Positions 1-42,944 of a stretch of DNA of 42,944 nucleotides are shown in pieces (the stretch's first letter is position 1; every line of letters begins with the position of its first letter). The stretch comes from Gammaproteobacteria bacterium (GTDB lineage Bacteria > Pseudomonadota > Gammaproteobacteria > Xanthomonadales > Marinicellaceae). Below the pieces are notes generated by a model that did no database searches, was not told the origin of the DNA, and saw only the letters and a list, made by a program, of their open reading frames with translations. The stretch spans positions 1 through 42,944 of the forward strand of contig JAUIGR010000021.1 in NCBI GenBank assembly GCA_030430025.1. Direction: 5' to 3'. The position numbers and the translations under genes are program-made.

Positions 1-127
1 ATTTTGTTGATGATTTCGACCAGAAAGTAACAATAATTTTAACATCGCCGGTCGAAATATAACAGGTATAACAACAACATTGTATTTAATATCAATCTCT
101 TATTTGTTTTTCAGGACTGACTAATTA
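1..127 (-). repeat. Terminal repeat, left copy (related to the dispersed family)
   Basis: This stretch is the exact reverse complement of 42818-42944. The identity stops at base 127, which is also the outer edge of a TAATTA-ended element terminus (TAATTAGTCAGTCCTGAAAA when read on the minus strand). The same terminus is found on the internal repeats near 31 kb, 38.7 kb and 41.8 kb, and an inner motif TTTCTGGTCGAAA is also shared. The rest of the sequence differs, so this looks like a related subfamily. Only the outer part of the element is present, because the window begins inside it. Confidence 0.9.
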
Positions 128-31001: not shown

Positions 31002-31016
31002 GCTCAATGTTTTAAG

Positions 31017-31328
31017 TAGTCGAACCTGAAAAATACATAACGTATTGTTAAATATCAAGAGTTACTTCAATTTTGCACATTTTTTCGACCAGGAAACAGG
31101 TGTCACAATGCATTTTTATTCGCCGCTTCCATGCGGCTCTCAGGCTACGTGAAAAAGTTTTCCAGAAACTTTTTTATGGTCGATGGCGTGGCACAGGGAC
31201 GTGCCACCTTGGGCCATCAGGCTCAAGTAGATAGTGTCAAAAAACAGCAGCAAAATCAGACTTTTGCGCTTAAGTGTTTTTTTGACCGATGCTGGAAAAG
31301 GCCAGGAAGGACTTTTTCAGGACTGACA
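31017..31328 (+). repeat. Dispersed structured repeat, copy A (forward)
   Basis: A non-coding element about 312 bases long in the gap between two convergent genes. It starts TAGTCGAACCTGAAAAA and ends TTTTTCAGGACTGACA, an imperfect terminal inverted repeat. Inside are hairpins: GCCGC/GCGGC at 31122-31137, AAAAAGTTT/AAACTTTTT at 31152-31174, GTGGCAC/GTGCCAC at 31188-31207 and TTGGGCC/GGCTCAA at 31209-31226. A long AT-rich stem of GTCAAAAAAC with GTTTTTTTGAC lies near the right end. The core at 31149-31175 is identical in the three internal copies. It looks like a MITE-type or REP-like repeat; no transposase is present. Confidence 0.9.
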
Positions 31329-31329
31329 A

Positions 31330-31357
31330 AGTAGAGACACGCCCTTGTGTCTCTACT
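31330..31357. terminator. Perfect 11-bp hairpin between convergent genes
   Basis: AGTAGAGACAC and GTGTCTCTACT pair completely around the loop GCCCTT. It sits between the amidohydrolase (plus) and the adaptor gene (minus), so it may be a bidirectional terminator. Neither side has a proper T-run, so a structured target next to the repeat is also possible. Confidence 0.45.
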
Positions 31358-38700: not shown

Positions 38701-39018
38701 TAATTAGTCAACCCTGAAAAAGTCCATTCTGGCCGTTTCCAGATTCGGTCAAACAACACTTAACCGCAAAAGTGCGATTTTACTGCAGTTTTTTTGACCT
38801 CACTTGAATCTGACGGCTCAAGGTGGCACTTTCATGTGCCACACCATCAACCAGAAAAAAGTTTCTGGAAAACTTTTTCACGCCAGCCTGAGAGCCACAT
38901 GGAAGCGGCGAATAAAAATACATTGTAATACCTGTTTTCTGGTCGAAAAAATATGCGAAATTTAAGTAAATCTTTATGTTTAACTATAAGTTGTGCATTT
39001 TTTAGGCTCGACTAATTA
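38701..39018 (-). repeat. Dispersed structured repeat, copy B (reverse)
   Basis: The reverse-oriented copy, about 318 bases long and filling most of the gap between the M16 and UPF0149 genes. Its outer ends are TAATTAGTCAACCCTGAAAA on the left and GGCTCGACTAATTA on the right, so both termini share TAATTAGTC. The core at 38855-38881 is the exact reverse complement of copies A and C. The hairpin GTGGCAC/GTGCCAC at 38823-38842 keeps its stem while its loop differs fully from copy A. The end at 39012 provides the stop codon of the UPF0149 gene. Confidence 0.9.
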
Positions 39019-40293: not shown

Positions 40294-40489
40294 ATGATGT
40301 TAACTGCAGTGTTCGAGGTGCGTTTGCATATGCCTTGGCCCTAATGAATCACTACAGGAAACCTCTTTCATATGTCGGTGTGCATGCTCACCATTGCAGT
40401 GAGACGCCTTAGATATTGAAGGGTTTCCGCCTTGTACCTCTGGTACCAAGGACGCCAGCACACTACGGCACAAGCGGTTAACATCTTTT
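40294..40489 (+). ncRNA. ssrS: 6S RNA
   Basis: A roughly 195-base RNA that binds the sigma-70 RNA polymerase holoenzyme as an open-complex mimic and stores it in stationary phase. The ends form a 12-bp stem, GATGTTAACTGC at 40296-40307 with GCGGTTAACATC at 40474-40485, followed by a T-run. The inside resembles E. coli 6S, with GTGTGCATGCTCACC and GAGACGCCTTAGA at corresponding places. The location between zapA and fau is the conserved one, so the call is well supported. Confidence 0.93.
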
Positions 40490-41695: not shown

Positions 41696-41750
41696 AACTT
41701 AATCCCGGGAGGCATATTAAATGAATCGCATTAGTTAATATATCTATAAA

Positions 41751-42030
41751 TACTCAAACCTAAAAAATGCATAAGCTATTGTTAAATATAAGAAATTATT
41801 TCCATTTTACACATTTTTATTCGCCGTTTCTATGCAGCTCTCAGGCTAACGTGAAAAAGTTTTCCAGAAACTTTTTTCTGGTCGATGGCATGACACACGA
41901 ATGTGCCGCATTGAGCCATCAGGCTCAAGTGAGGTCAAAAAACACCAGCAAAATCATACTTTTGTGGTTAATTGTTGTTTGACCGAATCTGAAAAAAGCC
42001 AGAATGGACTTTTTCAGGATTGACTACTTA
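41751..42030 (+). repeat. Dispersed structured repeat, copy C (forward, shorter)
   Basis: A forward copy of about 280 bases between rpiA and the beta-helix remnant. The ends are TACTCAAACCTAAAAAATG and TTTTTCAGGATTGACTACTTA. It lacks about 35 bases found in copies A and B (the part with TCGACCAGGAAACAGGTG). The core at 41851-41877 is identical to the other copies; TTGAGCC/GGCTCAA at 41911-41928 is a perfect stem. The GTGGCAC stem has decayed by substitutions. The last bases (TTA on this strand) give the TAA stop of the next gene. Confidence 0.88.
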
Positions 42031-42817: not shown

Positions 42818-42944
42818 TAATTAGTCAGTCCTGAAAAACAAATAAGAGATTGATATTAAATACAATGTTGTTGTTATACCTGTTATATTTCGACCGGCGA
42901 TGTTAAAATTATTGTTACTTTCTGGTCGAAATCATCAACAAAAT
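42818..42944 (+). repeat. Terminal repeat, right copy
   Basis: Begins TAATTAGTCAGTCCTGAAAA at the end of the beta-helix remnant and runs to the end of the window. It is the exact reverse complement of 1-127. It shares the terminal bases with the internal repeats and the motif TTTCTGGTCGAAA, but the remainder differs. The element is cut by the window end. Confidence 0.9.

Follow-up and report, generated by a model that had tools for sequence, protein, structure and literature searches.

A type-II MITE family and a probably separate triple-hairpin palindromic module nested within it in a gammaproteobacterial genome

Type-II MITEs such as Chunjie of Geobacter uraniireducens and QMITE1/2 of Coxiella are, in the available portions of PMC10969869, non-coding elements of less than 500 bp with short TIRs and target duplications, located between genes, similar to an autonomous IS at their ends only and ranging in size down to about 40 bp. 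Another kind of dispersed palindrome, the REP element, falls into superfamilies defined by GTAG or CGTC tags in the accessible part of PMC3733652. The repeats studied here are likewise short, non-coding and intergenic, with the same arrangement of ends and target duplications, and many of them contain a palindromic module in one hairpin. We consider that they represent two nested mobile elements, a type-II MITE and a separate palindromic module inside it, with a probability of about 0.85.

The window, that is, the whole stretch of 42,944 nucleotides analysed here, is contig C90 of a 3.08 Mb genome assembled in 114 contigs. Three copies of the repeat had been located in it by a sequence-only reading, and when we re-derived the boundaries from the window sequence, counting each element from GTC to GAC, they lay within a few bases of the positions proposed. 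Copy 1 (31019-31327, plus strand, 309 bp) ends in the TIRs GTCGAACCTGAAAAA and GTCAGTCCTGAAAAA, and comparison of its flanks identified a left target-site repeat TAAGTA at 31013-31018 and a right one, AAAGTA, at 31328-31333 (both read on the plus strand), which match at 5 of 6 positions. Copy 2 (38707-39012, minus strand, 306 bp) is enclosed by TAATTA at 38701-38706 and 39013-39018. Copy 3 (41753-42024, plus strand, 272 bp) has an internal deletion in its left arm and CTC in place of GTC at its left end; its flanks are TAAATA (41747-41752) and TACTTA (42025-42030). All three belong to the long form of the element (see below). The copies do have common ends, as had been claimed, but the terminal motifs were differently composed: TAATTAGTC is the target repeat plus the start of the TIR, and CCTGAAAAA is the remainder of the TIR. 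A 6S RNA gene at 40298-40484 (plus strand) adjoins copies 2 and 3, with a UPF0149 gene on one side and the 5-FTHF cyclo-ligase and rpiA genes on the other. In an attempted empty-site comparison for these two copies, the flanking genes in same-genus genomes were either not adjacent or gave no match.

The family extends well beyond the window, in agreement with the earlier expectation of many genomic copies. A 23-base core pattern with up to 2 mismatches found 88 sites in the own genome (68 exact, 17 with one mismatch and 3 with two) and none with the reversed control pattern, which excludes chance. Allowing 1 mismatch, the TIR pattern matched 362 times (182 + 180) against 178 for its control, so that about half of the TIR matches are background. 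With copy 2 as the query, at least 40 matches of 83-100% identity were obtained (the best 40 of 210 candidates, its own site included), and nearly all the matches listed run from end to end. The TIR consists of 15 bp inverted ends, GTC NNN CCTGAAAAA, and the paired ends in the fetched stretches gave modal lengths of 305-307 and 245-249 bp, corresponding to two forms of the element: one of about 305 bp with the core and one of about 246 bp without it. Among the 72 end pairs detected in the fetched own-genome stretches, 66 had the core and 6 lacked it; 11 of the 66 measure 180-183 bp and result from false or truncated pairing, and the sample is biased towards core-bearing copies since most loci were picked by their core. 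For the same reason we set aside the low divergence of the core within 52 copies (1.8% versus 8.2% overall) as a sign of selection.

The sequences flanking the element indicated a preferred target. In 60 full-length copies the left and right hexamers were identical in 33 cases and differed at one position in 23, at two in 3 and at three in 1, whereas random re-pairing of the flanks gave 15% identical hexamers; TANNTA was present on the left flank of 57 and on the right flank of 50. Target duplications, which the sequence-only reading had recommended looking for, are thus duplicated TANNTA sites, although, with outer TA pairs that hardly vary, duplications of 2, 4 or 6 bp are indistinguishable. 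An empty site was also found. Contig C49 has an IS remnant with a single TATTTA (...AACAACTATTTAAACATTT...), and in the same remnant on contig C2, which is 96-99% identical in two aligned parts, a 246-bp MITE lies between two TATTTA. No ORF of at least 90 aa contained any of the 60 full-length copies, so the proposed location between genes held. For the 54 copies with an ORF on both sides, the neighbours were convergent in 15, divergent in 4 and tandem in 35, and the median distance was 41 bp to a stop codon (65 sides) and 147 bp to a start codon (43 sides), with ORFs found mechanically in this core-biased sample. Derivatives of the MITE are as small as 43 bp. Mini-elements of about 40-45 bp with little beyond the two TIRs were seen at L044 (C39:27121-27175), L026 and L039, and the one on C39 has matching TIRs and TAAGTA on both sides.

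The same genome contains IS with corresponding ends. On contig C45 (9519-10971), an IS of 1453 bp with the TIRs GTCGAACCTGAAgAATCC and GTCGAACCTGAAAAATCA is flanked on both sides by TAATTA; its TIR and its target are the same as those of the MITE. Its two ORFs matched the NCBIfam IS5 model NF033578 with 240.5 and 242.7 bits, over profile positions 190-419 and 2-184, respectively. Each is under the cut-off of 275 bits, which is set for one whole protein, because the transposase gene is split. A second, decayed IS on C2 (10856-12462) retains pieces of DUF772 and DDE_Tnp_1, and its ends are one X-like (75% identity) and one Y-like (82%), X and Y being two high-identity end sequences of the own genome. 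The X end was found at 15 sites and the Y end at 13, in both cases with 99-100% identity; 27 of these 28 are at contig ends, and none of these recent copies has its interior assembled. X and Y are probably the opposite ends of a single IS that was amplified recently, as the X-like and Y-like ends of the C2 IS suggest. The window has a Y end of this multi-copy element, taken for a parental-type IS, at 4-123 on the minus strand, where the contig breaks inside it, and a second one of the same kind at 42822-42941 on the plus strand, at the opposite end of the contig. Window positions 1-123 and 42822-42944 are both inside Y, and the contig seems to be bounded by two IS copies.

The MITE and the IS share little outside their ends, which identifies the repeats as type-II MITEs. 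With a length below 500 bp, TIRs within 4-30 bp, a target-site duplication, no transposase and a related IS, they are MITEs, a new family of a kind already known, and in itself the MITE is ordinary. The MITE-like character suggested from the sequence is therefore borne out by the shared TIRs, the TANNTA duplications, the empty site and the matching IS5-family elements. As for the suggested transposase elsewhere in the genome, there are IS5-family elements that share the MITE's ends and target. Their transposase was nowhere found intact in the assembly, the copy on C45 being split and the one on C2 decayed, and it is the shared ends and targets that suggest mobilisation. Most likely, the MITE would be mobilised in trans by an IS5-type transposase. 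That no intact IS5 copy is assembled might instead point to a transposase of another family which by coincidence shares the ends, but we regard this as very improbable, for an IS5-family element flanked by the same TIR and a TANNTA duplication resides in the same genome.

The sequence-only reading had also described a chain of hairpins. This description applies differently to the two parts of the repeat: the stems of the internal module covary strongly (see below), but in the hairpins of the MITE itself most pairs are invariant, and only 6 of 67 show any double change (RNAalifold covariation term -0.17). Fold z-scores were -8.45 for a short MITE copy and -3.5 for copy 2 folded as DNA, but with so little covariation the MITE hairpins were rejected as a functional RNA.

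The 27-base core GTGAAAAAGTTTTCCAGAAACTTTTTT is present in 3 of 3 window copies, as had been noted. However, comparison of the element between genomes indicates that it is foreign to the original MITE, being the last hairpin of an inserted, separate triple-hairpin palindrome of 60-75 bp. The same-genus genomes G010 and G013 gave 32 and 30 matching pieces of the MITE in which query positions of about 106-159 are absent, and the 12 copies aligned from these genomes show nothing of the core at the place of insertion: their junction reads GCA-TTTTT-CTGG, versus GCA-TTTTT-ATTCG[...]GAAAC-TTTTT-TCTGG in the own genome. The core-free form of about 246 bp also occurs among the own-genome copies. In other genomes the module is found alone, outside MITE ends. 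The own genome has 71 distinct core contexts, 54 of them in a complete MITE and the other 17 mostly in cut or diverged MITEs; three contexts (on C2, C38 and C26) are outside any MITE. The predominance of the long form in the own genome, 66 versus 6 of 72 in a core-biased set with 11 spurious long pairs, would suit an explanation in which the whole 305-bp unit including the core is one MITE and the short form its deletion derivative. Such a derivation is highly unlikely, as the deletion would have had to excise exactly the module in several lineages, the copies of G010 and G013 have the short form without core remains, and the core with its two upstream hairpins exists in other genomes without MITE ends.

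We therefore describe the module as an entity of its own. Its layout is TTATTCG-H1-CTCACC-H2-GGCTTACGTG-H3, with the last stem ending in a T-run. In the window it occupies 31116-31175 of copy 1 (plus strand, H2 shortened; covariance model (CM) score 71.5 bits), 38855-38915 of copy 2 (minus strand, 73.3 bits) and 41817-41877 of copy 3 (plus strand, 64.4 bits); the covariance model R1 found these three, and its other hits, above E 0.03, were all on their opposite strands. In 17 aligned instances, 98.7% of the cells of stems H1, H2 and H3 were paired, and double-change cells numbered 57 versus 15.2 in shuffled alignments, with much lower numbers in slid controls; the structure tested had been drawn from those same sequences. 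A further model-fitted alignment gave 98 double-change cells versus 23.4 shuffled, and 52 distinct class-level instances gave 164 versus 41.8 with 98.3% of cells pairing; both of these alignments were fitted to the earlier structure, and the class-level one leans towards the model. Even in the absence of selection, stems could stay complementary if palindromes were repaired by template switching.

The module is spread over many families of the Gammaproteobacteria. R1 matched 30 of 33 family genomes at E <= 0.01, with weak matches only in G016, G030 and G032 and none in G001, G004 and G031. In a sample of the class, at least 62 of 369 genomes, the own genome included, had matches at E <= 1e-4, under stricter filters and with the best 13 candidates per genome scored. 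Another genome of the class has four head-to-tail modules with a spacing of about 68 bp (L307, G157:C1:1407155-1407427). At L183, L184, L169, L175, L141 and L182, modules in opposite orientation share one A/T-rich hairpin, and these arrays add a second hairpin type, ACCATTCAC..GTGAATGGCCCTTCGGGTTACATG. Searches of mobile and reference DNA, made by blastn or exact patterns and so weak for variable stems, found 0 stretches of the exact module consensus in viral contigs, no match of one module instance with phages or with E. coli genomes, no match of a GC-rich instance with plasmids, and two Proteus records when one instance was compared with plasmids. In Proteus mirabilis H110, the spacer between the 23S and 5S rRNA genes contains a module whose H1 and H2 are nearly the same (L287:1501-1577). 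Although classed as a plasmid, this record has a length of 4.09 Mb and is apparently a chromosome.

Five sites could be compared with module-free counterparts, which were different copies, species or paralogues and not one strain before and after insertion; their targets were T-runs, reduced in one case to two Ts. The first is the left hairpin of the MITE, with the target TTTTT. The second, in G010:C44, is at the right end of the MITE (GGCCTTTTTCAG), a different place where the module has the opposite orientation. The third is an A-run that follows VQEK in an IS5 transposase gene; on C2 and C38 the module sits there and shifts the frame, and the module-free relatives on C45 and in G019 read VQEKNIT. 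The other two are in one family of Y1-type transposase genes: after ...SWFMK in L199, L200 and L214, where the target is two Ts only, and further on, at GGTTTTTCAG, in L201, L203 and L213; L237 is empty at both positions. Read antisense, the module specifies a recurrent peptide (KSSGTIFHASPEGVSLMDETNK-like). This reading is in frame in L200, a Y1-transposase ORF that is cut short at a later point, and in L221, where the module falls inside the HipA_C domain of an ORF of 459 aa. The latter, hipA-like ORF (L221:897-2273, minus strand) has an apparent second insertion of about 16 residues near the module. An open frame of at least 150 codons crosses the module at 14 of the 52 class-level sites, several of them probably by chance, and of the four such frames compared with Pfam, the hipA-like one alone has its module flanked on either side by a known domain. 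We rejected in-frame insertion as a general rule, since 38 of the 52 sites lack such a frame.

The strong covariation of the stems and the T-run that terminates the last hairpin would also be expected of a conserved structured RNA, a terminator-like sRNA or an mRNA 3' element, that is not mobile DNA at all. We find this explanation unlikely in view of the antisense copies in transposase and hipA-like genes and of the several copies per genome, with nested and inverted arrays; moreover, in a scan of the window and 14 loci, no Rfam covariance model matched any part of the MITE or the module.

If the module is mobile DNA, its resemblance to REP elements raises the question of RAYT/Y1 transposases as its movers. 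It is palindromic and dispersed, most of the class-level sites read have no long open frame running through it, it occurs in inverted pairs and arrays, and six of the fetched module loci are inside Y1-type transposase genes. Nevertheless, we hold it improbable that the module is a REP element moved by such enzymes. It has three hairpins in about 68 bp versus one of 20-40 bp, and neither GTAG, GTGG nor CGTC stands beside the outer stems in the consensus, as read by eye (ACGTG precedes H3). PF01797 was detected at E <= 1e-5 in 21 of the 33 family genomes, and neither the own genome nor G013, with its 31 module matches, was among them. Modules were present in 10 of the 12 genomes without PF01797 (weakly in G030 and G032), absent in 1 of the 21 with it, and near 1 of the 30 Y1 loci scanned. 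A link with RAYT was thus set aside as not consistent: across the 33 family genomes and 30 Y1 loci, Y1 transposases do not track the module. Note that G003, counted among the genomes without PF01797, holds a fragment of a Y1 gene.

Returning to the two nested elements, we propose the following course of events. An IS5-family transposase acting in trans would copy the non-coding MITE, of about 246 bp (305 bp when filled), into TANNTA sites, in many cases shortly after the end of a gene. The module would have entered the T-run of a hairpin in a MITE ancestor of the own genome, probably once, and the MITE would then have carried it to about 80 places. Its spread as a passenger of the MITE is suggested because its position is identical across copies. 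The module is, or was, probably mobile through an enzyme acting on folded single-stranded DNA. A broader generalisation is tentative, and we give it slightly less than an even chance: the modules may be undescribed, class-wide gammaproteobacterial mobile palindromes with a fixed three-hairpin chain, variable stems that are almost always complementary, insertion into T-runs by an enzyme acting on folded single strands, antisense in-frame entry into genes and high copy number via MITEs. Neither the MITE nor the module is described in the literature searched, which consisted mostly of titles and abstract openings with few subscription journals and hence speaks only weakly for novelty. The new point is the module, a palindrome that appears to be separate, widespread and structurally conserved and to ride on the MITE. 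The natural filled and empty sites of the module offer material for deducing its target rule and its enzyme. If the proposal is right, one non-autonomous element has here served as the vehicle of another, and the conserved core of a repeat family can be a late intruder and not its functional heart.

Compared with known systems, the MITE is set apart from Chunjie and QMITE1/2, as far as their descriptions in the available text go, by its TIR GTCNNNCCTGAAAAA, its TANNTA target and the palindrome in one hairpin. The transposase pieces of the own-genome IS whose ends match belong to the IS5 family (NF033578); this IS is set apart by its TANNTA target, with a duplication of 2 to 6 bp, and by having no intact transposase assembled. 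The module resembles the REP/REPIN elements, as the accessible parts of PMC3733652 and PMC3116915 present them, in being a dispersed palindrome with compensatory stem changes and often in inverted pairs; it differs from them in having no tag, three hairpins per unit and no consistent RAYT association. By description it is also similar to the Rickettsia palindromic elements (RPE) in being palindromic and in its antisense recurrent peptide, and perhaps in having some copies in frame within coding genes. Unlike the RPE, which measure about 150 bp in the available portion of PMC10969869, the module measures about 66 bp, is gammaproteobacterial, is made of three separate hairpins and lies mostly outside long frames.
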